Position numbers and translations under genes: made by a program. Under the pieces are notes generated by a model, which made no database searches, was not told the origin of the DNA, and saw only the letters and a program-made list of their open reading frames with translations. Source: a candidate division NC10 bacterium CSP1-5 (GTDB taxonomy: Bacteria > Methylomirabilota > Methylomirabilia > Methylomirabilales > CSP1-5). Taken from it: a DNA stretch of 64,000 bases. Location of the stretch: positions 315,306-379,305 of the forward strand of contig LDXR01000002.1 in the NCBI GenBank assembly GCA_001443495.1, read 5' to 3'. This document shows, in pieces, positions 14,696 to 53,849 of this stretch (its first letter is position 1; each line of letters begins with the position of its first letter).

Positions 14696-15190
14696 ATGGC
14701 ATCAATAATGGTCGGGGAATCGTTGGTCGGAGACGGGAACGAGGTTGCCCACATTGACCTCATGATCGGCCGAAAGGACGGACCGGTCGGAGTGGCGTTT
14801 GCCAACCGCCTGGCCGCGCAGACGGCGGGACACAACGGTCTCCTCGCGGTGCTCGAGCCAAACCTTCCGGCAAAGCCCGACACGGTGATGTTCAACAAGG
14901 TCACCATCAAGGGGGCGACTCAGGCGGTCCAGATGTTCGGTCCGGCTCAGATGGCGGTGGCAAAAGCCGTCGCGGACAGCGTCGCCGCAGGGATCATTCC
15001 AAAGAAGGACGCGGAGGATCTCTGCATCGTCTGCGGGGTCTTCATCCACTGGGAGGCCAAGGACACGAAGAAGATCTACGAGTATAATTACCAAGCCGTC
15101 AAGGAGTCGATCCAGCGCGCCTTTGCCCAGAAGCCGACGGTCGACGAGGTCCTCGCTAAGAAGGACAAGGCCAAGCATCCCTTCGCCTAA
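14696..15190 (+). CDS. fae: Formaldehyde-activating enzyme (Fae)
   Basis: Fae catalyses condensation of formaldehyde with H4MPT to methylene-H4MPT in the cytoplasm. 164 aa, matching the family. EVAHIDLMIGRKDGPVG near the N-terminus holds the catalytic His (residue 19 here, equivalent to His17 of the Methylorubrum enzyme). GHNGLLAVLEPNLPAKP, TVMFNKVTIKGATQAVQMFG and QMAVAKAVADSVAAGIIP are nearly invariant in true Fae, unlike the more divergent Fae2/Fae3 homologs. ATG follows GGGAGGGG. A hairpin and then mtdB lie downstream. Confidence 0.98.
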   Translation: MASIMVGESLVGDGNEVAHIDLMIGRKDGPVGVAFANRLAAQTAGHNGLLAVLEPNLPAKPDTVMFNKVTIKGATQAVQMFGPAQMAVAKAVADSVAAGIIPKKDAEDLCIVCGVFIHWEAKDTKKIYEYNYQAVKESIQRAFAQKPTVDEVLAKKDKAKHPFA

Positions 15191-15256: not shown

Positions 15257-16132
15257 ATGGAGCGGAAGCACCTTCTGTATCTCTTTAGTACCGATGCCTC
15301 GGCCAGCCCCTTTGACATCAACATGGCCTACGACGCGGGGTTTCATGCGGTCATCCCGTACGGGAACGTGACCGAGGAGACGGGCACCCTCCTCATCCAG
15401 GACATCATCTTTTCCCGCGGTCCAAAGGGGGCCAAGTTTACGGCCCTCTTCATCGGCGGCAACGACGTGGACCTCGCCGAGACGATCCGTGCGGCCGCCA
15501 TCAAGAGCATGTTCCCACCCTTCCAGGTCTCGGTGATGATCGACCCTAAGGGCGCGTACACCACTGCCGCCGCCCTCGTGGCCAAGGTGGAGAAAGCCCT
15601 GGGAGGTCTGAGCGGGAGGAAGGCCGCGATCCTCGGCGGAACGGGCCCCGTGGGCAGAGTGGCGGCGACGCTCTGCGCGAAGAACGGGTGCGAGGTGATC
15701 GTCGGGTCGCGTTCGAGAGAGGCGGCGGATCGTCTCGCGAAGGGGATCGCGGAGAAAGCCGGTGGGAAGATCGCAGGCGCCCAGATGGGGACAGACGACG
15801 AGAAACTTCCCATCTTAAAGGGGGTCGACGTGATCCTAGCGACGGCAAAGGCCGGGGTCGAGATCCTGTCCCGGTCGGCCTTAGAGGTACTGCCCGCGGG
15901 CAAGGTGGTGGCCGACGTCAACGCCGTCCCGCCGAGCGGCGTGGCAGGGCTCAAGCCGGAAGACGATCTGAAGGAGATCGCTCCGGGGATCAGGGGGATC
16001 GGGGCGTTAGCCACCGGGGTCTTGAAGTACGACGTCGAGATGGAGATGTTGGAGACGATCAGGACCTCCAAGGAGTTTATCGTCCTGGACGATGGCTCTG
16101 CGATGGACATCGCCAGGAGACGACTTCGGTAA
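15257..16132 (+). CDS. mtdB: NAD(P)-dependent methylene-H4MPT dehydrogenase
   Basis: Oxidises methylene-H4MPT to methenyl-H4MPT with NAD(P)+. 291 aa. The N-terminal domain (YLFSTDASASPFDINMAYDAG) and the SRGPKGAKFTALFIGGNDVDLA block match MtdA/MtdB. The Rossmann part has ILGGTGPVGRVAATLCAKNG near residue 135, followed by VGSRSREAADRLA. The island has fae, mch and fwd genes, which supports the H4MPT-linked MtdB rather than folate-linked MtdA. The start has no clear Shine-Dalgarno and sits 12 bases past the hairpin. The SDR gene follows after 8 bases. Confidence 0.93.
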   Translation: MERKHLLYLFSTDASASPFDINMAYDAGFHAVIPYGNVTEETGTLLIQDIIFSRGPKGAKFTALFIGGNDVDLAETIRAAAIKSMFPPFQVSVMIDPKGAYTTAAALVAKVEKALGGLSGRKAAILGGTGPVGRVAATLCAKNGCEVIVGSRSREAADRLAKGIAEKAGGKIAGAQMGTDDEKLPILKGVDVILATAKAGVEILSRSALEVLPAGKVVADVNAVPPSGVAGLKPEDDLKEIAPGIRGIGALATGVLKYDVEMEMLETIRTSKEFIVLDDGSAMDIARRRLR

Positions 16133-16140
16133 GGAGCCTG

Positions 16141-16872
16141 ATGGATTTGTCCGGCAGAGTTGTTATCGTGACGGGGGCAAGCCGACAAGGCCAGATGGGG
16201 GAGCATCTCGCCCAGGCCTTCGCGGGGCGGGGAGTATCCGTCGTGGTTGCCGCCAGGACGGAGGCCAACGTCGCGAGGGTCGCTGAGGGGATCAAGGCCA
16301 AAGGAGGCAGAGCCATTGGTCTCCAGGTGGACGGGACGGTTGAAGCTGATGTCCTTCGCATGGTGGACCGAACGCTTCAGGCGTATAAGCGGATCGACGT
16401 CCTGGTGAACCTGGCCGGGGGTCTGACCCGGTACAAGCCGGTGGCTGAGATGACTGTGAGGGATTGGGAGGAGGAACTGAAGAATAATCTCACCACAGCA
16501 TTCCTGTGCTCCCGGGCTGCGATCAAGCCCATGGCTGACGCCAAATATGGGAAGATCATTAATTTCGCTTCGGTAGGCGGTTTGAATCCCATGGCGCAGA
16601 TGGCGCCTTACAACTGTGCCAAGGCCGCGATCATCGCGCTGACGAAGACGCTGGCCCTCGAGCTGAAGAAGCATAATATCTATGTCAACGCCGTGGCCCC
16701 GGGGCTGATCCAGACGCAGGCCAACCTCGAGGCGATGAAGCCCTCCCCGGAAGATCTGGAGAAGAAGTGGGTGAGTCGGGAGGCGGTTGCCAACGCGGTC
16801 CTGTTCCTGGCCTCGAGGGCCTCTGACGGGATCACCGGTCAGGTGATCCCGGTCATGGGAAAAGGGATTTAA
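16141..16872 (+). CDS. Short-chain dehydrogenase/reductase in the fae-mtdB operon
   Basis: 243 aa classical SDR: an altered glycine motif (TGASRQGQMGEHLAQAF), the NLAGG equivalent of NNAG, a Ser in NFASVGG, the YNCAK catalytic pair (YxxxK) and NAVAPGLIQT. ATG has AAGGAG just before it. It is the last gene ahead of a terminator, so it is probably cotranscribed with fae and mtdB. Substrate unknown. A pterin reductase role (dihydromethanopterin reduction is otherwise unassigned in the window) is possible, but FabG-like reductases look much the same. Confidence 0.8.
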   Translation: MDLSGRVVIVTGASRQGQMGEHLAQAFAGRGVSVVVAARTEANVARVAEGIKAKGGRAIGLQVDGTVEADVLRMVDRTLQAYKRIDVLVNLAGGLTRYKPVAEMTVRDWEEELKNNLTTAFLCSRAAIKPMADAKYGKIINFASVGGLNPMAQMAPYNCAKAAIIALTKTLALELKKHNIYVNAVAPGLIQTQANLEAMKPSPEDLEKKWVSREAVANAVLFLASRASDGITGQVIPVMGKGI

Positions 16873-16994: not shown

Positions 16995-17336
16995 GTGGCC
17001 AAGTCATTTATCTTGATCACCGGTCGGACGACGAAGCAGGGACGGACCATCCACCTGGGCAAGCAGGCCAAAGACTACATCGACGAGGTCAGCGCCCTCG
17101 AGATGAACCCGGCGGACATGGAAGCCCTTCAGGTCAAGGAGGGGGACCGGGTGCGCCTGAGGACTGACCATGGCTCGAGCGTGGTCCGGTGCAAGAAGGG
17201 GACGGTGCCGCCCGGGCTCCTCTTCATCGCCTACGGTCAATTTGTCAATGCCCTGGTTGGGCCGGATACGCAGGGGACCGGGATGCCAAACACGAAAGGG
17301 ATCGAGGTGGAGGTAGAGAAAGATGACAGTGGCTAA
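16995..17336 (+). CDS. fwdD: Formylmethanofuran dehydrogenase subunit D (molybdopterin-dinucleotide binding)
   Basis: 113 aa, the size of methanogen FwdD, a separate subunit equal to the C-terminal MGD-binding domain of formate dehydrogenases. Visible are FILITGRTTKQG near the N-terminus, ALEMNPADMEALQVKEGDRVRLRT and GLLFIAYGQFVNALVGPDTQGTGMP, matching the MGD-binding beta-barrel. The GTG start has only a weak AAGGA upstream. It overlaps fwdB by 14 bases. The well-studied formyltransferase/hydrolase complex of Methylorubrum (FhcABCD) has no subunit of this kind, so its presence here suggests a pterin cofactor is bound. Confidence 0.88.
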   Translation: MAKSFILITGRTTKQGRTIHLGKQAKDYIDEVSALEMNPADMEALQVKEGDRVRLRTDHGSSVVRCKKGTVPPGLLFIAYGQFVNALVGPDTQGTGMPNTKGIEVEVEKDDSG

Positions 17337-18657
17337 AGAGATGCGGGTGGTGAAGGACGTCACCTGCCCCTTCTGCGGGGTGACCTGTGACGATCTGGAG
17401 GTCCATGTCGAGGATGGCAAGATCCGCGACGTCAAAAATGCCTGTGTCCTCGGCAAGGATACCTTCCTCCATCACCTCGAGGGGTTGGCGACTCCCCGGA
17501 TCGATGGAAAGCCGGCCTCCATCGAGGCGTGCATTGAGGCGGCGGCGGATATCCTCGCCCGGGCGAAGTACCCTCTCATCTATGGCCTGGATTCGACTGA
17601 GCTCCATGCCCACCGCAAGGCGATCGAACTCGCGGACCTGATTGGGGCCAACATCGACCACACCTCTTCGGTCTGCCATGCCCCCAGCCTCCAGGCGGTG
17701 CAGACCGTCGGGATTCCAAGCTGCACGGTTGGCGAGGTCAAGAACCGGGCCGATCTGGTGATCTTCTGGGGGGCCAACCCGGCCGAGGCCCATCCGCGGC
17801 ACGCAACCCGGTATTCCGTGACGGTGAAAGGCATGTTCACCCCTCAGGGGAGGAAGGATCGGACCGTCATTCACATCGATGTGCGGCGCACGCCAACCAG
17901 CCGCATGGCCGATACGTTCATCCAGATCAAGCCCCACTCCGATTACGAAGTCTTCTCCACCCTGACCGCCCTGGTCAACGGGCATGACCTCGATGTCTCG
18001 GAAGTCGGGGGCGTTCCCCTGCAGGAATGGCGCGACCTGGTTGAAGTGATGAAGGGAGCGAAGTTTGGGATTCTCTACTGGGGCATGGGACTCACCATGA
18101 CCCGGGGGAAGTATCTGAACGTGGTGGCACTGCTCCGGCTCTGCCAGGAGTTGAACCGCTTTACCAAGTTTCTGGGGGCGCCGCTCAGGGGTCACGGCAA
18201 CGTGGTCGGCATGGCCCAGGTCCTCACCTGGCAGACGGGGTTCCCGTTCGCCGTGAATATGAGCCGCGGGTATCCGCGATTCAACCCGGGCGAGTTCTCG
18301 GTGGCGGACCTGCTGGGCCGGGGGGAGGTCGATGCCGCGCTGATCATCGCGGCCGACGCCATCGGCAACTTCCCCGCCAAAGCGGCCCAGCATCTGAAGT
18401 CCATTCCGCTCATTGCCGTGGATCCGAAGGAGAGTGAGACGACGAAGGTCGCTCAGGTAGTCATCCCCGCAGCCCAGGCGGCGGTGGCCGCTGAGGGCGT
18501 AGCGTACCGCATGGATCACATCCCCCTCCCCCTCAAAAAGGTCGTCGATTCCCCGTATCCCTCGGACCGCGAAATCCTCGACCGGATCATCGCGCGGGTG
18601 CTGGCGAAGCGGCCGGACGATGGGGCCAAGCGCGCAGCTCCTCTTCCGCGCGGGTAG
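17323..18657 (+). CDS. fwdB: Formylmethanofuran dehydrogenase subunit B with intact metal-site residues
   Basis: 444 aa. In methanogens FwdB carries the tungsten- or molybdenum-pterin and one [4Fe-4S] cluster and interconverts CO2 and formate. Here the cluster ligands are Cys15, Cys18, Cys22 (CPFCGVTC) and Cys41. SSVCHAPSLQ places Cys118 and His119 exactly at the metal ligand and catalytic His of methanogen FwdB, and Arg289 in PLRGHGN matches the catalytic Arg (288 there). EVKNRADLVIFWGANPAEAHPR and SRGYPRFNPGEFS are family blocks. It overlaps fwdD and precedes fwdA by 6 bases. A paralog at 52428 lacks the Cys, His and Arg. No FwdF/G/H polyferredoxin gene is seen. Confidence 0.95.
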   Translation: MTVAKEMRVVKDVTCPFCGVTCDDLEVHVEDGKIRDVKNACVLGKDTFLHHLEGLATPRIDGKPASIEACIEAAADILARAKYPLIYGLDSTELHAHRKAIELADLIGANIDHTSSVCHAPSLQAVQTVGIPSCTVGEVKNRADLVIFWGANPAEAHPRHATRYSVTVKGMFTPQGRKDRTVIHIDVRRTPTSRMADTFIQIKPHSDYEVFSTLTALVNGHDLDVSEVGGVPLQEWRDLVEVMKGAKFGILYWGMGLTMTRGKYLNVVALLRLCQELNRFTKFLGAPLRGHGNVVGMAQVLTWQTGFPFAVNMSRGYPRFNPGEFSVADLLGRGEVDAALIIAADAIGNFPAKAAQHLKSIPLIAVDPKESETTKVAQVVIPAAQAAVAAEGVAYRMDHIPLPLKKVVDSPYPSDREILDRIIARVLAKRPDDGAKRAAPLPRG

Positions 18658-20331: not shown

Positions 20332-21240
20332 ATGGAGCTGAACGGCGTTCCCATCGAAGACACGTATGCCGAGGCCTTCTCGGCTATCGGGGCCCGGCTC
20401 CTCATCACGGCCGAGAATGAGCGCTGGGCCCGGGAGGCGGCGGCGAGCTTCACCGGCTTTGCCACCTCGGTGATCGGGTCCGGCTGTGAGGCAGGAGTCG
20501 AGGGGGTCGCCAGTGAGACCCCGGACGGCCGGCCGGGCGTCACGGTCCTGATCTTCGCCATGTCGAAGAAGGGCCTGCACGAGCAGCTGATCAAGCGGAT
20601 CGGTCAGTCGGTGATGACCTGTCCGAGCACCGCCTGCTACAACGCCCTGGCCGGAGAGTCGTGGGTCTCCGTCGGCGGCAAGCTCCGCTTCTTCGGGGAC
20701 GGCTTTCAATCCAGTAAGCTGCTGGATGGAGTCTTCAATCCACCCGTCGGGCGCGCCCGGCGGTTCTGGCGGATCCCCGTGATGGATGGGGAGTTCGTGG
20801 TGGAGGACCGATTCGGCATGGTCAAAGGGGTCGCGGGAGGGAACTTTTTGCTCCTCGGGGAGGAACCGCAGGCCGTACTGCAGGCTGCCGAGCTTGCCGT
20901 AGGGGCGATGCGTCAGGTCCCCGGAGTCATCCTCCCCTTCCCGGGCGGGGTCGTTCGGAGCGGGAGCAAAGTCGGATCGCAGTATAAATTCTTGACGGCA
21001 TCAACCAATACCGCCTATTGCCCGACGATTCGGCGGCAGGTCGAGAGCGTCCTCCCGGACGAGGTGAGGGCCGTGCTGGAGATCGTCATCGACGGCCTGA
21101 CGCCCGATGGAGTGGCTGAAGCGATGCGGGTGGGGATCCGCGCCGCATGTCGTCCCGGCATTAAGGGAATCTCGGCTGGCAATTACGGTGGCAAACTGGG
21201 GAAATATCACTTTCGCCTCCACGAGGTCTTGAGGAGCTAA
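20332..21240 (+). CDS. ftr: Formylmethanofuran:H4MPT formyltransferase
   Basis: Moves the formyl group between H4MPT and methanofuran (Ftr/FhcD). 302 aa, as in the family. ELNGVPIEDTYAEAFSAIGARLLITA at the start, GSGCEAGVEG, GVTVLIFAMSKKGLHEQLIKRIGQSVMTCPST, FFGDGFQSSKLL, and the closing GIKGISAGNYGGKLGKYHFRLHEVL are near-invariant. It lies between fwdA and fwdC, as expected for a complex-forming enzyme. The gene starts 27 bases after fwdA. Confidence 0.98.
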   Translation: MELNGVPIEDTYAEAFSAIGARLLITAENERWAREAAASFTGFATSVIGSGCEAGVEGVASETPDGRPGVTVLIFAMSKKGLHEQLIKRIGQSVMTCPSTACYNALAGESWVSVGGKLRFFGDGFQSSKLLDGVFNPPVGRARRFWRIPVMDGEFVVEDRFGMVKGVAGGNFLLLGEEPQAVLQAAELAVGAMRQVPGVILPFPGGVVRSGSKVGSQYKFLTASTNTAYCPTIRRQVESVLPDEVRAVLEIVIDGLTPDGVAEAMRVGIRAACRPGIKGISAGNYGGKLGKYHFRLHEVLRS

Positions 21241-21255
21241 CGCCCGGGTACGCTC

Positions 21256-22071
21256 ATGGGAGAGATCATCCTCACCTTCAAAGGGATGGGCGGGTCGACG
21301 GTTCCGCTCGAGGCCGATCCCATTACGCCGGATCTGCTCCAGCTCAAGGTCCGGGCGGAGATCGAGCGACTGCCGCTCTACCACGGGAACGAGCAGTTGC
21401 TGCTCGGCGACTTCTTCTCCGTCAAGGGAGAGCGGTCGAACCAGATCCGCCTCCGGGGGGATTTGTCCCAGGTCAAGAACATCGGGGTCGGGATGCAGAC
21501 CGGGCGCATCGTGATCGAGAGCAGTATCGGGATGCACGTCGGGGCCCGGATGACCGGAGGCGAGATCCAGGTTCACGGAAATGCGGGTGACTGGGCAGGG
21601 GCGGAGATGACCGGTGGCCTCCTCTGGATCAATGGAAGCGCGGGTAACCGGGCCGGCTCGGCCTATCGCGGCAGCAAGTACGGGATGCGGGGTGGGGTGA
21701 TCCTGATCGAAGGGAGCGGTGGGCACGAGGTGGGGGGCTACATGCGCCGCGGACTGATCGTCGTTCGCGGGAATCTGGAGGATCACGCGGGCGCGCGGAT
21801 GGTGGCGGGATCGATCTTCGTGTTTGGTCGGGTCGGTGGCCGAACCGGTGGCGGGATGAAACGGGGGAGCATCGTCTGCTTCAACCCGCTGGACGTCTTG
21901 CCTACCTTTCGCCTGACCTCCACCTACGCGCCGCTCTTTGTCACGATCTATCTCCGGGCCCTCCGGAGCAGAGGGTTTTCGGTTCCAGAGATCGGCGGCG
22001 GACGCTTCGCCCGATACTGCGGAGACCTGGCCGAATCCGGCAAGGGGGAGATCCTGGTGTGGCAGGGGTAG
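21256..22071 (+). CDS. fwdC: Formylmethanofuran dehydrogenase / hydrolase subunit C
   Basis: 271 aa beta-helix protein homologous to the GXGXG domain of glutamate synthase. The repeated GXXXG turns are visible, for example GDLSQVKNIGVGMQTGRIVIE, GARMTGGEIQVHGNAGDWAG, GSAGNRAGSAYRGSKYGMRGG and GSGGHEVGGYMRRGLIVVRG. This subunit holds the complex together and is thought to carry the MFR arm between active sites. It starts 15 bases after ftr, and its end overlaps mch by 13 bases. Confidence 0.96.
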   Translation: MGEIILTFKGMGGSTVPLEADPITPDLLQLKVRAEIERLPLYHGNEQLLLGDFFSVKGERSNQIRLRGDLSQVKNIGVGMQTGRIVIESSIGMHVGARMTGGEIQVHGNAGDWAGAEMTGGLLWINGSAGNRAGSAYRGSKYGMRGGVILIEGSGGHEVGGYMRRGLIVVRGNLEDHAGARMVAGSIFVFGRVGGRTGGGMKRGSIVCFNPLDVLPTFRLTSTYAPLFVTIYLRALRSRGFSVPEIGGGRFARYCGDLAESGKGEILVWQG

Positions 22072-23027
22072 CGGGAACGGGACGGATCAGCGTGAATCGC
22101 CGTGCTGCCGCGTTCGTCGAGCAGCTCGCAGCCGATACGGCAGCGCTGGGGGTCGACGTGCATCGACTGGCGAATGGCACGCGCGTGGTGGACGCCGGCG
22201 TCCGCGCCCCCGGGGGTTTCGGGGCCGGAAAGGCCGTCGCCCTGATCTGTCTGGGCGGCCTCGGCGACGTCAGTTTTATCCCGTACGACCTCGGTGGGCT
22301 GACCATCCCGGCCGTGAGTGTGACGGTCGACCGGCCTGTGATCGGGTGCATGGCGTCCCAATATGCGGGGTGGAAGATCAGCGTTGGGAAGTTCTTCGGC
22401 ATGGGGTCGGGGCCGGCCCGCGCCATCGCGGTTGTGGAAAAGCTCTACGCCGAACTCGATTATCGGGACGAGGCCGACGAGGCGGTGCTGGTCCTCGAGA
22501 CGGATGCGATGCCGACCGAAGAAGTGGCCGCCTACGTTGCGGGAAAATGCGGGCTTGCTCCGGAACGGCTCACCCTGGTCGTGGCCGCGACCACGAGCGT
22601 CGTGGGGGGCATTCAGATCGCCGCCCGATCGGTGGAGACGGCGATGCACAAGATGATGGAGCTGGGGTTCGACCTCCACAAGGTACAGGCGGGCTCCGGG
22701 GTGAGTCCTATCGCGACCCCGATCCGCGACACGCTACGGGCCATTGGCCGGACCAACGACTGTGTGCTGTACGGGGCGACCGCGGCGTTAGTCGTGGATG
22801 CAACCGATGACGAGGTCGAACAGATCCTGGACCGGATCCCTTCCTCTGCCTCTCGGGATTACGGTACCCCTTTTTACGAGCTCTTCAAGCGCTATGGGGA
22901 CTTCTACAAGATCGACCCGATGCTGTTCAGCCCCGCGCGGGTGACGATTACCAACGCGGCCACCGGGCGTACCTGGTCCGCTGGCCAGTTGAACCTCGAG
23001 CTGCTGCGGAGCTCCCTTGGCGCGTAG
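22059..23027 (+). CDS. mch: Methenyl-H4MPT cyclohydrolase
   Basis: Hydrolyses methenyl-H4MPT to N5-formyl-H4MPT. 322 aa. RISVNRRAAAFVEQL at the start, GGFGAGKAVALICLGGLGDVSF, VTVDRPVIGCMASQYAGWKIS, FGMGSGPARA and the long C-terminal GRTNDCVLYGATAALVV, FKRYGDFYKIDPMLFSPARVTITNAATGRTW are diagnostic. The GTG at 22059 overlaps fwdC; GTG 22092 is the alternative but would cut the conserved ISVN. Cotranscription with the fwd genes is very likely. Confidence 0.97.
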   Translation: MAGVAGTGRISVNRRAAAFVEQLAADTAALGVDVHRLANGTRVVDAGVRAPGGFGAGKAVALICLGGLGDVSFIPYDLGGLTIPAVSVTVDRPVIGCMASQYAGWKISVGKFFGMGSGPARAIAVVEKLYAELDYRDEADEAVLVLETDAMPTEEVAAYVAGKCGLAPERLTLVVAATTSVVGGIQIAARSVETAMHKMMELGFDLHKVQAGSGVSPIATPIRDTLRAIGRTNDCVLYGATAALVVDATDDEVEQILDRIPSSASRDYGTPFYELFKRYGDFYKIDPMLFSPARVTITNAATGRTWSAGQLNLELLRSSLGA

Positions 23028-23075: not shown

Positions 23076-23948
23076 ATGCGGGTAGGCATCCTCGGACACA
23101 AGATGGGATGGCATATCTCGGTCCTGCAACGGGCCTTCGCCCGCCGCGGCGCGGCCGCGGACCACCTGTCGATCACGGCCATCACTGCTGGCGTTGGCAT
23201 CGGGCGTTCCTTCGAAGCGGAAGGGCGGGTCCTCGAGGCGTACGAGGGGCTGCTGATTCGCATCATCCCTGACGGCTCCCTCGAGCAGATCATCTTTCGG
23301 ATGGACGCGCTCCACTGTCTCGAGGCCAGGGGGATCACAGTCATGAACTCGCCGAAGGCGATTGAGAAGACGGTCGACAAGTTCTACACCTCGAGCCTCC
23401 TCGAACACTCCGGGGTCCCCACGCCCCGCACCGTGGTCACCGAGGACTTCGACGAGGCCATGGCCGCCTTTGAGAAATTCGGCGACGTGATCGTGAAGCC
23501 GCTCTTCGGCTCCGGGGGACGGGGGATGGTCCGGGTGAGCGATTGGGAGGTGGCCTACCGGACGTTCCGCGCCTTGGAAATGGGTCGGTACGTCTTCTAT
23601 CTGCAGGAGTATGTGCCCCACGGCGATCACGATATCCGGGCCTTCGTCGTGGGCGACCGCGTGGTGGCCGCGATGATCCGGCGATCCACCGGGTGGCGGC
23701 ACAACGTCGCCCGTGGCGCCCGGGTGGAGGCGTGCCAGCTCGACGGCGAGGCGGAGGAACTTTGTCTCCGCGCCTCGGCGCTCCTCCGCGTCGACTACGC
23801 GGGCGTGGATCTGCTCCGCACTTCCGACGGGCGTACCGTGGTCATCGAAGTGAACAGCATCCCCGGTTGGTCGGGCCTCCAGACCACCACCTCCACCGAC
23901 ATCGCGGACGCGATCGCCGGCCACCTGGTTGCCTCCCTTCGCCGTTGA
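23076..23948 (+). CDS. RimK-family ATP-grasp ligase (MptN-like, H4MPT glutamate ligase candidate)
   Basis: 290 aa ATP-grasp enzyme. It has the RimK-type preface (MRVGILGHKMGW), GITVMNSPKAIEKTVDKFYTS, VIVKPLFGSGGRGMVRV, LQEYVPHGDHDIRAFVVGD and the metal motif VVIEVNSIPGWSGLQ. Archaeal MptN of this family adds glutamate to tetrahydrosarcinapterin; in H4MPT-using bacteria a homolog sits in the C1 island. Here it follows mch by 48 bases and could glutamylate H4MPT or methylofuran. Exact acceptor not provable from sequence. Confidence 0.85.
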   Translation: MRVGILGHKMGWHISVLQRAFARRGAAADHLSITAITAGVGIGRSFEAEGRVLEAYEGLLIRIIPDGSLEQIIFRMDALHCLEARGITVMNSPKAIEKTVDKFYTSSLLEHSGVPTPRTVVTEDFDEAMAAFEKFGDVIVKPLFGSGGRGMVRVSDWEVAYRTFRALEMGRYVFYLQEYVPHGDHDIRAFVVGDRVVAAMIRRSTGWRHNVARGARVEACQLDGEAEELCLRASALLRVDYAGVDLLRTSDGRTVVIEVNSIPGWSGLQTTTSTDIADAIAGHLVASLRR

Positions 23949-23955
23949 GCCTCAG

Positions 23956-24822
23956 ATGCGGGACCCGCGCGACGTTGCTCTCGCCGCCCAGCTCGCATGT
24001 CTCATTGAGGTGAGCACCCCGAAGCCCGGCAACGTCCATCCGCAGGCCGACTTCGCCGACACCCGCTACGAGGATTTTGTGGCCAGCGCCCTCGCCATCG
24101 GAGATGCCATGGGTCAGGCCCACCGGATGGGCGTCGGGAAGATCGTCTGGGCGGCAGTGCGAGACACTCGGCGCCGGGTCGGGGTGAACACGAACCTCGG
24201 CCTAGTCCTGCTGCTGGCGCCACTCGCCAAGGCAGCGGTGATGCAGGGCGGGGGCGGCCTCCGGACGCGGCTCCGTCGGGTGCTCCAGGGGCTCACGGTT
24301 CAGGACGCCCGCGATGTCTACAGGGCCATCCGCCTGGCCAAGCCCGGAGGCCTCGGGACGGTCGATCGGTGGGACGTGCGGGAAACCCGGGTTGGGGTGA
24401 ATCTCCTGACGGTGATGCGGGCGGCAGCCGACCGGGACACGGTGGCCCGAGAATACGCGACCGGCTTCGCGGTGAGCTTCGACGTCGGCCTGCCGTGCCT
24501 ACAACGCTCCTTCGACGTGACCCGAGATCTCCGGGCCGCCACCCTCCAGACCTACCTGACCATCCTCGCGACGGTTCCCGATAGCCTGATCGCCAGAAAA
24601 GCGGGGCCGCGGCAGGCCAGCGAGGTTTCACGGGAGGCCGCCCGGATCCTCAGCGCTGGCGGAGCCCAGACGGCGGCCGGCAGACGGTGGTTGGCGAGGT
24701 TCGACCGCCAGTTGCGCCGCCGACGGAATCTCCTCAATCCCGGGACGACCGCCGACCTCACGGGGGCGACCCTTTTCGTGGAGCTCCTTCGGAACGGGAT
24801 CCGCCGCTTCCTTGGCCACTGA
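23956..24822 (+). CDS. CitG/MdcB-like triphosphoribosyl-dephospho-CoA synthase family protein
   Basis: 288 aa. The family signature is visible: AAQLACLIEVSTPKPGNVHPQADF near the start, GVNTNLGLVLLLAPLAKAA, LAKPGGLGTVDRWDVRE, DSLIARKAG and the end LNPGTTADLTGATLFV. True CitG/MdcB make the citrate or malonate lyase prosthetic group, but no lyase genes are present. A homolog of this family is a known member of H4MPT gene islands in methylotrophs, with no assigned step. ATG 23956 is 7 bases after the ligase gene. Its 3' end overlaps the opposite-strand beta-RFAP synthase gene by 65 bases. Confidence 0.85.
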   Translation: MRDPRDVALAAQLACLIEVSTPKPGNVHPQADFADTRYEDFVASALAIGDAMGQAHRMGVGKIVWAAVRDTRRRVGVNTNLGLVLLLAPLAKAAVMQGGGGLRTRLRRVLQGLTVQDARDVYRAIRLAKPGGLGTVDRWDVRETRVGVNLLTVMRAAADRDTVAREYATGFAVSFDVGLPCLQRSFDVTRDLRAATLQTYLTILATVPDSLIARKAGPRQASEVSREAARILSAGGAQTAAGRRWLARFDRQLRRRRNLLNPGTTADLTGATLFVELLRNGIRRFLGH

Positions 24823-25768
24823 CCCCCTCGACCGTTGCCCCGTGGTTGTTCGCCCCGGCCGTGAAAGTCATGACCTTTCCTCTCCGCTCGAGCGCCTCTC
24901 GAAGACGTGCCTCAAGGCGCCATGCTATCTCCGCTCCGCCGACGAGGCCATACACCGCCGGACCCCAAGAACTCTGGCCCCCTCCGGCTGCCCCCTCGGC
25001 CACCATCAGCGCCAGGATATCCTCAGCCATCGCGGTGGCGTAGGTCCCCCGCTGGATGGGAGCGAACCAGCGCCCGATGATGCGCTGGATCGCGGTGAGC
25101 GCCTGTCCGAAGGATCCCAGGTCTTTTTCGATCAGCGATGGCAGGAGCTGCATGAGAACCACGTGGCAGACGGCGGCGACCTCCTCCTGGGGGGGACTTG
25201 CCAGCTGACCAAATGCCTTCTCCTCCGCTGCACCATGCAGCGCCTCCCCGAGGTCCGGCACCACGACGACAAATCGCCACTCCTCAGGAAACGGGTGACG
25301 GAAGATGACCGTCGGGATGTCGCTGACCTTCCCTCCGCCGCTGTCGAGGATAAAACCCCCGCGCGCAAAGGCAGTCACTCCGATCCCGGAACGCCTTCCC
25401 CGCCCGGTCAGACGGGCCAGCTCTGCAAGGGTGACGTCCAGCTTGAACAGGCGGGCGACCGCCGTCGCGACCGCGAGACTGAGTTGTGTCCCCGAGCCGA
25501 GCCCCACGTGCGCCGGGATCGTCTCGCGACAGTGAATTGAGACACCTTGATCGAGGGCGAAATGTCTCAAGAGACGCCGAAGGAGAGGCTCTACCCGGCC
25601 GTCAAGGTCACCCTCGACGCTGACTGTCGGGGCGGTCCGCGCTTCGAGCACAAGCTGGGGCGTATCGATCGCGACGCCGAGGCTGCCAAAGCGGCGCCCC
25701 AGAGACCCGTCGGGGTCGATGAATCCCAGGTGAAGTCTGGCTGGGGCAGTCACGACGACGCTAGCCAT
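24758..25768 (-). CDS. mptG: Beta-ribofuranosylaminobenzene 5'-phosphate synthase
   Basis: Joins p-aminobenzoate-type substrate and PRPP with decarboxylation to beta-RFAP, the committed step of H4MPT synthesis. 336 aa, GHMP-kinase fold: VTAPARLHLGFIDPDGSLGRRFGSLGVAI, PAHVGLGSGTQLSLAVATAVARL, GRGRRSGIGVTAFARGGFILDSGG and QSSWGPAVYGLV. These match beta-RFAP synthases of methanogens and methylotrophs. The ATG at 25768 overlaps the stop of the DUF447 gene (ATGGCTAG), so the two are translationally coupled. The C-terminal 25 residues are low-complexity and lie over the opposite-strand citG-like gene. Confidence 0.95.
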   Translation of the reverse strand: MASVVVTAPARLHLGFIDPDGSLGRRFGSLGVAIDTPQLVLEARTAPTVSVEGDLDGRVEPLLRRLLRHFALDQGVSIHCRETIPAHVGLGSGTQLSLAVATAVARLFKLDVTLAELARLTGRGRRSGIGVTAFARGGFILDSGGGKVSDIPTVIFRHPFPEEWRFVVVVPDLGEALHGAAEEKAFGQLASPPQEEVAAVCHVVLMQLLPSLIEKDLGSFGQALTAIQRIIGRWFAPIQRGTYATAMAEDILALMVAEGAAGGGQSSWGPAVYGLVGGAEIAWRLEARLREALERRGKVMTFTAGANNHGATVEGVSGQGSGGSRSEGAPRKGSPP

Positions 25769-26318
25769 GGGACCCACTCACGTGTTCGGAAAGATACCTG
25801 AAGGCGGCGTGCTCTTGCTCCCCGCCCGTCTTGTCGACGATGAGGCGGAGCCGTTCGAACTCCTTCAACACGTGCTCCCGGCCCAGGAATCTTAGCCGCG
25901 TGGCAACGATGGCGGCCTCGATGACTGCGTTCTGGGCGCGGTTGAACCCGATGAACTCGCGCAGGACACCCTTTTTGACCACGGCGCAGACGAAGCGTGC
26001 GCGCTCCCCTTCCTCCTGCAAGTCCCGGACGGTGCACTCATAGTACATGCAAGCGTCTTTGAGGACGAGGCCGTCAACGCGTTCAGCGGGGATCGCGGGA
26101 AACTGGGGCCGTCCCACTGCCCCCTCGGCAAACAGCAGGACGTTATCGGTCAAATTAATCACGGCCTGTCCTGTCGCGACAAGGTTCACGTACGTTGTGG
26201 TTTCCTTGTACGGGCGCAGGAGGATCGGTTCCCGGTCGAAGGTGACGCCCATGGGGGCGAAGTTCGGGAGGCCGCTCTGGTCTTGCGTGATGACGATGCT
26301 CTCGACGATGAAGGGCAC
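25761..26318 (-). CDS. DUF447 family flavin-like protein
   Basis: 185 aa. It belongs to the DUF447 family, an FMN-binding split-barrel-like group in methanogens and H4MPT-using bacteria: VESIVITQDQSGLPNFAPMGVTF, LRPYKETTTYVNLVATGQAVINLTDNVLLFAEGAVG, ACMYYECTV and GFNRAQNAVIEAAIVATRLRFL. The GTG at 26318 has an excellent AAGGGGGA site; a TTG at 26339 is less likely. It is coupled to mptG. The step is unknown; a flavin-dependent step in cofactor synthesis is possible. Confidence 0.85.
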   Translation of the reverse strand: MPFIVESIVITQDQSGLPNFAPMGVTFDREPILLRPYKETTTYVNLVATGQAVINLTDNVLLFAEGAVGRPQFPAIPAERVDGLVLKDACMYYECTVRDLQEEGERARFVCAVVKKGVLREFIGFNRAQNAVIEAAIVATRLRFLGREHVLKEFERLRLIVDKTGGEQEHAAFRYLSEHVSGSHG

Positions 26319-26335
26319 GACTCCCCCTTGGTCCC

Positions 26336-26600
26336 TCAATGCTTCCGGGTCACTGTGACGAAGCCACCGTCTGGAAGGCTGGCCGCCCCCACCACGAGCC
26401 GGGGTGCGGCCCCGGTGGCCGTTTCCACTTCCCCGCGGGCAACAATCCTATCTCCTGGATCGGCCGCATTACAGTACAGCCCCTCGAACGAAACCAGGGT
26501 TTCCACATCGCTGGCAGCCGGGTGGGTGGAGGTAGCCGACGACACAGAAGATCAACCCCTCGATCGTCTCAAGAAAGTCTCGGTCCTTCGGACGCCTCAT
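26336..26600 (-). pseudogene. Possible internally deleted nucleotidyltransferase remnant
   Basis: Between DUF1464 and DUF447 lies a 265-base stretch with two short out-of-frame ORFs. The first (26600 to 26469, 43 codons) starts with an ATGA overlap with the DUF1464 stop and reads RRPKDRDFLETIEGLIFCVV, which resembles the N-terminus of archaeal-type nucleotidyltransferases. The second (GTG 26545 to 26336, 69 codons) reads EGLYCNAADPGDRIVARGEV and PRLVVGAASLPDGGFVTV, resembling the C-terminal domain of the same family. The catalytic middle is missing. I read this as one gene reduced by an internal deletion and frameshift; family recall is tentative. Confidence 0.35.
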
Positions 26601-27547
26601 ATCTCGATCCAGTCAAGAACCCGCTCTGTCGTGTCTCGAAGGCCCAGATGGTCCACGAGTCCCTGAAACTGACCCCCCGCGATCCCATCCGCAAGGATGG
26701 CCGCCCCGAGCGCTGCCTCGAATCCCTCCCCATCCTCCAAAGGGAGCTCCATCGGATAACGCTTCTCGAGTCGCTCCATCACCGCTTCTTTCCGCCGGCC
26801 CGCCACGAGGATGCGCCGGAGGCCGTAATAGTTGAGAAAGAGGACGATCTCCTTCTCAAGCCCCTCCCAGAAGGCGTCGTGACCGTATTGGCCGAAGCGC
26901 GCTTCGATGTCGAGCGCCCCCCCACGGTACACCATCGCCTTGCTGAATGGGTACAGACACGCCAGCTCGCCATCGATCGCGCCCCGGGCCCTTGGCCCGA
27001 GATGTCCCGCCGTTCCGCCGAGACCGTCCACGACCCGGCCGCCGCGGACGACAAGGATCGCCTTGAAGCCTTCCCCGACCTCCACGCTCAGGAAATCCTG
27101 GGTCTCCAGGGATTCGCCACGGGCCATCTGAAGGTGGAGCAGGCACGCCACGGCGCACAGCTTATCAGCCGTGCCCATGTCGATCCGGTTCACCTTGCGA
27201 TGGACCGGAACCGACCGTAACAACTTGACCGACGGGATGCAATAGGCGCGCAGGTCGCTTTCGCGCAGCCTGGAGAGGAACTGTCCCAGTCCTTTTTCGC
27301 TCGGATCACCTCGGCGGAGCGTCATCTCGAACAGGTCCCGGTCATCCACCTCCTGAATGCGCCTCAGGGGGATCCCGAAGCCGGAGGGGAGAACTATCGG
27401 GAGATGGGGGTATGTTCGGGTTGTCTCCTCAAGCATGGGGTACAGCTCGGCGGGATCAGGAAACCACTTCAGGGCAAGGACCCGGGGGCCCTCGATGAGG
27501 GCGAATTTCCACGAGCCGGTCCCATAATCAATCCCCAGGGAGGCCAT
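26597..27547 (-). CDS. DUF1464 family protein (ASKHA/sugar-kinase-like)
   Basis: 316 aa. It shows an actin-like ATPase fold start (LGIDYGTGSWKFALI) and later LSVEVGEGFKAILVVRGGRVVDGLGGTAG, RRILVAGRRKEAVMERLE and FEAALGAAILADGIAGG. This is the DUF1464 pattern (once called predicted butyrate kinase) conserved in methanogens and in H4MPT gene islands. It overlaps the DHPS-like gene by 20 bases, so they are coupled. It probably phosphorylates or activates an intermediate of cofactor synthesis; the substrate is not known. Confidence 0.85.
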   Translation of the reverse strand: MASLGIDYGTGSWKFALIEGPRVLALKWFPDPAELYPMLEETTRTYPHLPIVLPSGFGIPLRRIQEVDDRDLFEMTLRRGDPSEKGLGQFLSRLRESDLRAYCIPSVKLLRSVPVHRKVNRIDMGTADKLCAVACLLHLQMARGESLETQDFLSVEVGEGFKAILVVRGGRVVDGLGGTAGHLGPRARGAIDGELACLYPFSKAMVYRGGALDIEARFGQYGHDAFWEGLEKEIVLFLNYYGLRRILVAGRRKEAVMERLEKRYPMELPLEDGEGFEAALGAAILADGIAGGQFQGLVDHLGLRDTTERVLDWIEI

Positions 27548-28871
27548 GGGTGAGATACCCCCAGTCCAGGTCCTCCTCCTGGATGTACTTCTTGCCGAGC
27601 CTGAGCGCGATCTGTGCCTTCATCAGCTCGCGCCCGAGATAGAAGGCATGGGACACAGGATTCGGCCCCAACTCACCGGCGATCTGGTGGAACATGCGCT
27701 GGATGTCGGTGTCCTTGATGAATCGGTCCTTGTTGAAGAGGTAGATGCTCTTCCCGTCGATCATGATCCGGAAATTGGGGTCGGTGATGCGGCGCTGCAA
27801 TGCACGGACCTCCTCTTCCGTCGGCCAGTCGACCTTGCGGTCCTTGATGGTGAGGAGGCTGTCGTCGATGTCCTTCGGGAGGACTCCCCGGCTCCGGGCA
27901 TAGTGCATCAACCGCCGGGCCCGGTCCAGTTCGCGGACCGTGCCCCGCGTCCAGTGGGCGACCTCTGTCGTGAGCACGTAGCGGATGTCCAGTTCAGCCA
28001 TGACCCCGACCATGAGGGCGTTGATCCCGGTGCTATCAGCATCGATGAGTTCGGTGAGGTTGCCCACGCCGATGAGCATTTCGGCCTTTGGGTACCGCTG
28101 GCGGACCTCATACAGCCGGTGGAGAAAGCGCGTGAAACCGAAGTTAAGCGGATCCAGGATCGGGTCCACCAGGTACCGGGTGATCCCCATCTGTTCGAGC
28201 GCGGCGATGTTCCGTTCGAGCGATTCAATCCCGGCGCCGAAGTCCGGGATGACGACGGGGATACAGGACAGCTCCGGGGCCAGGTGGATATTCTGTCCGT
28301 TGAGACTCAGCAGAAAATCGACACCGGCCTTGTTCGCCTGGCGGATCTCCTCTTCGTTAAAGGTGTCGACGCTGACCGTGAATCCCTCCGTTTTGAGCCG
28401 CGCCACGATCTCTCCCACGTTGTCGGCCGTGCGGCCCGGCGTGCATCCGATGTCGATGATATCGGCACCGCAGGTCTGGTAATACTTGGCCTTTTGCAGG
28501 ATCGCCTCCCACGAGAGCAGGGGGGCATCATTGATCTCGGCGAGGATCTGGATGGTGTACTGACCATACCCCTCGCGCTTTCGCTCGACGCCAAAGTGAT
28601 AGGGGATGTCGCGGAGATCCCGCGGGCCCTTCTCGACCCGCACCCCGAGGGCTTCGGTCAACAGGCCGGGCTCGGCCTGACACAGGCCGGGGATCATGAT
28701 CAGATCGCAGGGGCCAGGTTTGAGGGAGCGGAGGATAAAAGGGTTGGTCATCAGGGCCGCGACGCTGATCCGCAGGGTGGCCACCTCGTACGCGAAATCG
28801 GGGCGCATCGCCTCCAGGGTTTCCCGAAGCGCCCGGTCTGCCAGCTTTCCCGTCACGAAAAGGACCTTCAC
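27528..28871 (-). CDS. Archaeal-type dihydropteroate synthase-like protein
   Basis: 447 aa. An N-terminal domain of about 120 residues (VLFVTGKLADRALRETLEAM) precedes a TIM-barrel DHPS-like domain with AEINDAPLLSWEAILQKAKY, CGADIIDIGCTPGRTADNVGEIV, VSVDTFNEEEIRQANKAGVDFLLSLNGQN and YLVDPILDPLNFGFTRFL. Methanogens and H4MPT bacteria carry this longer DHPS-related protein, thought to condense the pterin with beta-RFAP or a derivative. It is 17 bases behind the SDR gene and overlaps DUF1464. Start is GTG with GAGGA upstream. Confidence 0.9.
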   Translation of the reverse strand: MKVLFVTGKLADRALRETLEAMRPDFAYEVATLRISVAALMTNPFILRSLKPGPCDLIMIPGLCQAEPGLLTEALGVRVEKGPRDLRDIPYHFGVERKREGYGQYTIQILAEINDAPLLSWEAILQKAKYYQTCGADIIDIGCTPGRTADNVGEIVARLKTEGFTVSVDTFNEEEIRQANKAGVDFLLSLNGQNIHLAPELSCIPVVIPDFGAGIESLERNIAALEQMGITRYLVDPILDPLNFGFTRFLHRLYEVRQRYPKAEMLIGVGNLTELIDADSTGINALMVGVMAELDIRYVLTTEVAHWTRGTVRELDRARRLMHYARSRGVLPKDIDDSLLTIKDRKVDWPTEEEVRALQRRITDPNFRIMIDGKSIYLFNKDRFIKDTDIQRMFHQIAGELGPNPVSHAFYLGRELMKAQIALRLGKKYIQEEDLDWGYLTHGLPGD

Positions 28872-52427: not shown

Positions 52428-53849
52428 ATGATGAATGCCGTCCAGAGCGAAGGCCAGTCTGGTCGGGGGCCTGATCCCCAGAGGACGGGACCGATCGTCG
52501 TTCGGGACGTCATCTGTCCTGGGTGCGCCGATCTGTGCGATGATCTGGAGCTCACCATTGAGGGGGATCGGATTGTCGGCATGCAGATCGACTGTCCAGG
52601 GGCCCGGGAATTTTTTCTGGATTACCGGATAGAGCAAATAAGCCCCATAGTACGGGGGAACGAGGTCACGTCGGAGGAGGCGTTGGAGGAGGCCGCGAGG
52701 ATTCTCGCCAAAGCGCGATACCCTCTCATCATGGGACTCAGCGCGACCGCCGCCGAGGCGCAGCGCCGGGCCGTCGAGCTGGCTGAGGCTCTCGGCGGTT
52801 GCCTCGATGTCCCCTATTCCGCCTTTTACGGCGCGAGGGCGCTGGCCCTCCAGGAAGTTGGGGAGTCGACGTGCACCTTGGGCGAGGTCAAGAACCGGGC
52901 CGATCTGGTCGTCTTCTGGGGCTCGGAGCCCCGTGACACGCATCCTCGCCATTTGGCCCGGTATGCAGTCCATCCGCCTGGGATGTTTCTGCCTCATGGC
53001 CGGACAGATCGAACACTCATCGTCGTGGATGTGCGACAGACCCCCACGGCCGAGGAGGCCGACCTCTTTCTCGAGGTGCGCCCCGGCGAGGATTATGAGA
53101 TTCTCACCGCACTCCGGGCCAGGCTGAAAGGGAGGGAGCTGGACAGGGCCGAGGTCGCCGGCGTCCCTCTCAAGGAGCTGGAATCCCTCCTCGCGCGGAT
53201 GAAGCGGTGCCGGTACGGGATCGTCTTTTACGGGACAGGCCTCAGCATGTCCCGGGGCTGGGAGCAAAACATCCACGAGCTCCTGCTCCTCGTGAGGGAG
53301 CTGAATGCCTTTACGCGATTCTCTGTGATGGCGATGCGGGGGCCGTTAGCCCACGGGAACGCGGCCGGGGCCTTCAAGGTCCTTTCCTGGCAAACGGGAT
53401 ACCCTTTCGCTCTGAGCTTTGCCCGCGGCTTTCCCCAGTACAACCCTGGTGAGTTCACCGCCTCCGAGCTCCTGGACAGGGGAGAGGTTGACGCCGCCCT
53501 CGTGGTCGGCGCCGATGCGTTGAGTTTTCTTCCCCCCCGGGCGGCTGCTGCCTTGAGAGAGCTTCCGACCATCGTTCTGGCCCCCCGGCTCCACGCGACG
53601 GCCCAGATCGCCACGGTCTTCTTCCCGACGGCCACCTACGGGATTGGCGCGAAGGGCACCATGTTCCGCATCGATCGGATCCCGCTCCGGGCGCGGCGGG
53701 TGGTTGATTCTCCTCTCCCCACCGACGAAGCGGTCTTGCTTGAGCTTCTCTCCCGCCTCCGGGATCGCCATGTGAATTTGGCGCCCACGGCGAGAGATGA
53801 GCTCCGAGTGTCCCTCCGGCACTTGAAAGAGATGAGAGGCCTGCGTTGA
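52428..53849 (+). CDS. FwdB paralog lacking the metal-site residues
   Basis: 473 aa, clearly homologous to the fwdB of the C1 operon (EVKNRADLVVFWGSEPRDTHPRH, WQTGYPFALSFARGFPQYNPGEF). The [4Fe-4S] ligands are kept with identical spacing (Cys30, 33, 37, 56). But the Cys118-His119 pair of FwdB is Phe-Tyr here (YSAFYGAR), and the Arg at 289 is Leu (PLAHGN). No fwdD lies beside it. It may be a structural subunit of a hydrolase-type Fhc complex, or have another role. The start ATG (52428 or 52431) follows GGAAGAAG. It follows the cyclase gene by 44 bases and may be cotranscribed with it. Confidence 0.92.
   Translation: MMNAVQSEGQSGRGPDPQRTGPIVVRDVICPGCADLCDDLELTIEGDRIVGMQIDCPGAREFFLDYRIEQISPIVRGNEVTSEEALEEAARILAKARYPLIMGLSATAAEAQRRAVELAEALGGCLDVPYSAFYGARALALQEVGESTCTLGEVKNRADLVVFWGSEPRDTHPRHLARYAVHPPGMFLPHGRTDRTLIVVDVRQTPTAEEADLFLEVRPGEDYEILTALRARLKGRELDRAEVAGVPLKELESLLARMKRCRYGIVFYGTGLSMSRGWEQNIHELLLLVRELNAFTRFSVMAMRGPLAHGNAAGAFKVLSWQTGYPFALSFARGFPQYNPGEFTASELLDRGEVDAALVVGADALSFLPPRAAAALRELPTIVLAPRLHATAQIATVFFPTATYGIGAKGTMFRIDRIPLRARRVVDSPLPTDEAVLLELLSRLRDRHVNLAPTARDELRVSLRHLKEMRGLR

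Follow-up and report, generated by a model that had tools for sequence, protein, structure and literature searches.

Archaeal-type formylmethanofuran dehydrogenase genes and divergent FwdB paralogues in the NC10 bacterium CSP1-5 and its relatives

Gene content and metal-site residues of the operon

The window, a 64,000-nucleotide stretch of contig LDXR01000002.1 (positions 315,306 to 379,305 of the forward strand) of the candidate division NC10 bacterium CSP1-5, carries a run of plus-strand genes in the order fae, mtdB-like, SDR, fwdD, fwdB, fwdA, ftr, fwdC, mch, mptN-like, and citG-like, followed by minus-strand cofactor genes (Table 1). FwdA, FwdC, and a separate FwdD are encoded together, and the position of ftr, after fwdA and before fwdC, makes the layout one of the Fhc type. 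The D-B-A-Ftr-C order is repeated in the complete genome G024 (locus L045), and in other genomes of the same taxonomic order FwdB is preceded by FwdD. The SDR gene situated between mtdB and fwdD in CSP1-5 is missing from that place in G024. The product of the mptN-like gene scores 272.9 bits with the MptN model, below its cut-off of 350. The CSP1-5 assembly (2.77 Mb, 40 contigs) contains one FwdA and one clear FwdD gene. Contamination is ruled out, as the contig to which the window belongs, 405 kb long, also bears the 16S gene (at about C2:245447-247009) at the position published for CSP1-5, i.e., contig LDXR01000002, 245454-247004, in a genome of 40 contigs, 2.8 Mb, and 62.4% GC (genome description in PMC6094997).

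Table 1. Positions of the genes and codons discussed in the text (in the window unless a locus is named)
Feature	Position	Strand	Basis
fae, formaldehyde-activating enzyme	14696..15190	+	PF08714 / TIGR03126 above cut-off
mtdB-like methylene-H4MPT dehydrogenase	15257..16132	+	PF09176 Mpt_N
Short-chain dehydrogenase (SDR), operon insert, start approximate	16138..16872	+	PF00106
fwdD, MGD-binding subunit	16995..17336	+	PDB FwdD matches, PF01568, phylum search
fwdB (FwdB1), catalytic subunit, C118-H119-R289 and four cluster Cys	17323..18657	+	
fwdA, archaeal-type amidohydrolase subunit, sole copy in the genome	18664..20304	+	TIGR03121, 777.8 bits
ftr/fhcD, formyltransferase	20332..21240	+	TIGR03119, PF01913/PF02741
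fwdC	21256..22071	+	TIGR03122, 259.6 bits (cut-off 130.65)
mch, methenyl-H4MPT cyclohydrolase	22059..23027	+	TIGR03120, PF02289
mptN-like ATP-grasp ligase (pterin glutamylation)	23076..23948	+	RimK family above cut-off
CitG-like gene, H4MPT/methanofuran gene set	23929..24822	+	PF01874
Cofactor genes: GHMP-kinase-fold protein (beta-RFAP synthase-like), DUF447, DUF1464, DUF6513/pterin-binding	24758..28871	-	
fwdB2, orphan FwdB paralogue, F133-Y134 for Cys-His, Arg304 and four cluster Cys kept	52428..53849	+	
Formate dehydrogenase-like gene broken by one TGA	L062 11334-14165 (G000 C2 about 38.3-41.2 kb)	-	
TGA at codon 118 of second FwdB	L034 9927		
TGA at codon 118 of second FwdB	L036 9364		
TGA at codon 118 of second FwdB	L037 10052	-	
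TGA at codon 118 of second FwdB	L038 4535	-	
TGA at codon 118 of second FwdB	L035 3726	-	
TGA at codon 118 of second FwdB	L039 10384	-	
tRNA-Sec-like gene	L066 1327-1424	+	
tRNA-Sec-like gene	L067 2106-2203	-	
tRNA-Sec-like gene	L068 2127-2224	-	

The fwdD and fwdB frames picked out in a sequence-only reading of the window are real; the first codes for 113 aa from a GTG start, the second for 444 aa, and they overlap by 14 bp. FwdD matches the archaeal FwdD chains 2ki8_A (E=2.6e-24), 8rja_D, 9sfi_S, and 5t5i_D and carries the Pfam MGD-binding domain PF01568. FwdB1, the FwdB of the operon, scores 538.6 bits with TIGR03129 (cut-off 327.8) and 340-435 bits with archaeal FwdB chains, 5t5i_B and 8rja_B giving 415-435, and its match to Methylorubrum FhcB (6s6y_B) is a partial one of 62 bits. 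The similarity of both subunits to their archaeal counterparts is far beyond chance. FwdA, too, scores higher with archaeal FwdA than with FhcA in the PDB search (559 vs. 395 bits). The residue numbers given for FwdB in the same reading are all right, as C15, C18, C22, C41, C118, H119, and R289 correspond to C9, C12, C16, C35, C118, H119, and R288 of Methanothermobacter FwdB in an alignment comprising 5T5I and four more archaeal chains. AlphaFold models, obtained from shallow alignments, are too poor for use, with a mean pLDDT of 57 for FwdB1 and 50 for its paralogue FwdB2.

The metal-site reading of FwdB1 was open to the objection that FhcB of classical methylotrophs might share the Cys-His-Arg set, and the alignment answers it: C118, H119, and R288 are absent from FhcB of Thiodictyon, Azospirillum, Aquabacterium, Azoarcus, Paraburkholderia, and Rhizobium, all encoded in plasmid-borne fhc clusters of the order B-A-D-C. 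The residue-level comparison comprises these six proteins, M. extorquens FhcB being compared by the 62-bit partial match alone; the latter protein has been reported to be devoid of Mo/W-bisPGD (PMC10100899). No FwdD is annotated before the proteobacterial FhcB genes where the annotation permits checking. Five of the six FhcB (L054, L055, L058, L059, and L056) keep the four N-terminal cluster cysteines despite the lost metal ligand, and the Rhizobium protein is shorter and lacks the N-terminal Cys domain.

Predicted reactions and alternative roles

The CSP1-5 operon codes for an archaeal-type FwdABCD core with Ftr in the Fhc order, which probably holds Mo/W-bisMGD on Cys118 and one [4Fe-4S] cluster and oxidises formyl-methanofuran via formate to CO2. 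Fae, MtdB, and Mch would produce formyl-H4MPT, from which Ftr would transfer the formyl group to methanofuran; FwdA would hydrolyse formyl-methanofuran to formate, and the channelled formate would be converted to CO2 by FwdB/D at a Mo/W-bisMGD centre held jointly by the two subunits, with Cys118 as a ligand. Electrons would exit via the [4Fe-4S] cluster to a carrier. The Fae, Mtd, Mch, Ftr, and FwdA steps are predicted from known families, and the FwdB/D step from residue conservation together with the selenocysteine variant described below; the sequences themselves show the residues, the subunits, the gene order, and the Sec exchange in sister genomes, and metal binding, CO2 formation, direction, and the electron acceptor are what we infer. 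In favour of this reading, the CSP1-5 genome also has a TupA-like gene, tRNA-Sec, and genes for other MGD enzymes. A point against it is the MobA score of 103.7 bits, below the family cut-off of 151.85, a threshold passed by only one of 14 control genomes.

The oxidative direction is the most likely one in the methanol-oxidising CSP1-5, which PMC6094997, in its passages on this organism, describes as aerobic and methylotrophic and as lacking methane monooxygenase; no match to AMO/pMMO is found in the CSP1-5 genome, and such genes are present in two sister-family genomes. The sequence-only reading had suggested a metal-dependent enzyme inside an Fhc-type operon that might either oxidise formate or fix CO2. 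The metal-dependent enzyme is supported insofar as no sequence feature expected of a Mo/W-bisMGD, [4Fe-4S] enzyme is missing from B and D; CO2 fixation is not supported. A complex running in reverse, from CO2 to formyl-methanofuran for a Wood-Ljungdahl pathway of the H4MPT type, would be in keeping with the reversibility of the archaeal chemistry and with the archaeal type of FwdB, but is highly improbable: no ACS/CdhC family match is found in the 99.7% complete genome, the Mer match is weak (57 bits vs. a cut-off of 348.7), no low-potential electron donor subunits are seen in the Fer4_7 search of the genome, and the organism is an aerobic methylotroph with the Calvin cycle, as stated in the same passages of PMC6094997. 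CO2 fixation as the main role is rejected on account of the ACS/CdhC absence and the Mer score.

In archaea, electron transfer beyond FwdB involves FwdG/F or FwdI (PMC11493965). The operon contains no redox partner or electron-transfer subunit of the FwdF/FwdG or FwdI-like kind, and no FwdF-like polyferredoxin is seen elsewhere in the genome, which also counts against the oxidative reading: the Fer4_7 search, in whose profile small FwdG-like ferredoxins are indistinguishable, gives 30 hits, with no frame having more than 4. The lack of an FwdF-like frame in the genome and of electron-transfer subunits in the operon would fit a complex working like Fhc, in which FwdA hydrolyses formyl-methanofuran and formate is passed to separate formate dehydrogenases, with FwdB/D metal-loaded or forming a vestigial scaffold that adds little. 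The placing of Ftr after A and before C, as in Fhc, points the same way, as does the presence of separate formate dehydrogenases in the genome, also mentioned in the relevant passages of PMC6094997. We nevertheless regard such working as quite unlikely, since FwdD and all the metal-site residues that FhcB has lost are retained, dN/dS of FwdB1 is about 0.09, and costly selenocysteine is maintained at the ligand position in the Sec paralogues.

Genes resembling SelB and FdhD, together with tRNA-Sec, lie no more than about 12 kb from the TGA-broken formate dehydrogenase-like gene of L062. The latter is probably a Sec formate dehydrogenase gene, which the published CSP1-5 list may omit.

Selenocysteine and Phe-Tyr paralogues of FwdB

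A search of 95 Methylomirabilota genomes gives FwdB above cut-off in 17 of them, several of the MAGs being incomplete, so that the absence of a copy from any one means little. Six genomes (G020, G024, G025, G030, G032, and G034), presumably of the sister family Methylomirabilaceae, have a further FwdB gene in which codon 118 is an in-frame TGA, the site reading SSV-U-HGPG (UHGP). This TGA is the predicted selenocysteine codon. The Sec FwdB copies form one clade in the tree (support 100/100), and all six genomes, as well as CSP1-5, have tRNA-Sec above cut-off. FwdD lies directly upstream of the Sec FwdB gene in G024, G025, G030, and G032, and in G020 with stop codons inside; TupA-like and molybdate-transport-like genes, named from their sequences, are found around it. 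An eight-bp hairpin following the TGA folds in five of the six copies, with z of -0.7 to -2.2 over the six, which is weakly significant, and an Rfam scan of the Sec FwdB genes gives no SECIS match. The selenocysteine predicted at position 118 of the sister paralogues provides an independent argument for a metal or redox role of this position in the lineage.

The Cys-type fwdD of three genomes is preceded, at a distance of less than 2 kb, by a second, divergent tRNA-Sec-like gene with the UCA anticodon. These genes score 54-57.9 bits (gathering threshold 47) and are not called by ARAGORN.

The second FwdB of CSP1-5, FwdB2, which the sequence-only reading does not mention although it lies in the window, shows 44-45% identity to FwdB1, scores 461.9 bits with TIGR03129, and has a three-residue insertion following Arg-Gly. 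The Phe-Tyr form is also found in G009 and G022, i.e., in three genomes in total. Its frame is intact, and dN/dS among the copies is 0.14-0.19, compared with 0.09 for FwdB1; FwdB2 is therefore constrained by purifying selection, but more loosely than FwdB1. In the tree it groups with the Cys-type FwdB of G084 (support 91/97), a long branch separating FhcB from it; a descent of FwdB2 separate from that of FhcB is suggested as a lead rather than proof, the FhcB branches being long.

One could tentatively propose, at less than even confidence, that FwdB2 is a metal-free scaffold B subunit which swaps for FwdB1 on the single FwdA/FwdC/Ftr core, giving a formate-releasing complex that parallels FhcB independently. 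The replacement of C118-H119 by Phe-Tyr in all three genomes, the intact and constrained frame, the single FwdA and single clear FwdD of the genome, and the position in the tree beside a Cys-type FwdB and away from FhcB would agree with such a swap. The gene, however, is located outside the operon with no adjoining FwdD; it is flanked by genes for a response-regulator/cyclase and a MerR regulator in CSP1-5 and has different neighbours in G022. The broader scheme, in which the Sec, Cys, and metal-less Phe-Tyr FwdB of one phylum would be interchangeable on a single FwdA/FwdC/Ftr core, directing the formyl group to CO2 and electrons or to formate release, with the metal-less form independent of proteobacterial FhcB, seems unlikely in its entirety.

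Relation to known systems

The characterised bacterial complex, Methylorubrum Fhc, is a metal-free hydrolase, and its archaeal counterpart a tungsten/molybdenum dehydrogenase; NC10 bacteria, methanotrophs included, appear to retain the metal enzyme. If so, the final step of formaldehyde oxidation in these consumers of methane or methanol would give CO2 and electrons directly and would depend on W or Mo, and sometimes on Se. Within one phylum, the three forms of FwdB (Sec, Cys, and Phe-Tyr) would constitute a natural series bearing on metal loss toward Fhc-like complexes.

The NC10 operon (Damo_0456-60; XU15_C0002G0330-34) has already been named a "formyl/formate oxidation system", with CSP1-5 included, and the M. 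oxyfera counterpart is the most transcribed of three such systems, according to the passages of PMC6094997 that deal with them; those passages do not discuss the metal-site residues or the Sec and Phe-Tyr paralogues. The operon in the window is very probably the published XU15_C0002G0330-34. Among bacteria, fwdD was listed in NC10, Synergistetes, and Firmicutes in 2016 (PMC5020050), and a MopB survey comprises 149 bacterial FwdB (PMC10100899). The core observation is thus well supported but largely in print already, and the Sec and Phe-Tyr paralogues are the new part as far as the literature searched shows. The comparison made here covers one phylum, Methylomirabilota, and a few plasmid-borne FhcB, with Synergistota, Firmicutes, and Actinobacteria lying outside it.

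Fhc (PDB 6S6Y) shares with the CSP1-5 complex the B-A-Ftr-C gene order and the context of H4MPT-dependent formaldehyde oxidation, but differs in FhcB, which is devoid of the metal ligand, His, and Arg retained in FwdB1, and in having no FwdD annotated before FhcB, while in the window FwdD overlaps FwdB. The fwdDBA-ftr-fwdC cluster of the Hakuba Actinobacteria, for which Cys118 and the [4Fe-4S] domain have been reported (PMC7325909), is alike in gene order, in both of these features, and in the lack of fwdF/G; its genome, however, has no H4MPT biosynthesis genes, whereas the CSP1-5 operon is situated amid a full H4MPT set. The methanogen Sec FwdB with the UHxP motif (PMC13188914) corresponds to the second FwdB of Methylomirabilaceae, with UHGP at the same site, but the host of the latter is bacterial, and no description of a bacterial Sec-FwdB was found in the literature searched. 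Finally, the archaeal FwdABCD/FmdABCD complexes (5T5I, 8RJA, and 9SFI) have in common with that of CSP1-5 the subunits FwdA, B, C, and D, the Cys118-His119-Arg288 set, and the four cluster cysteines near the N-terminus. They differ from it in that the CSP1-5 operon, found in a bacterial host with fae, mtdB, and mch alongside, has Ftr interposed after FwdA and before FwdC and codes for neither an FwdF polyferredoxin nor an FwdI-like partner.
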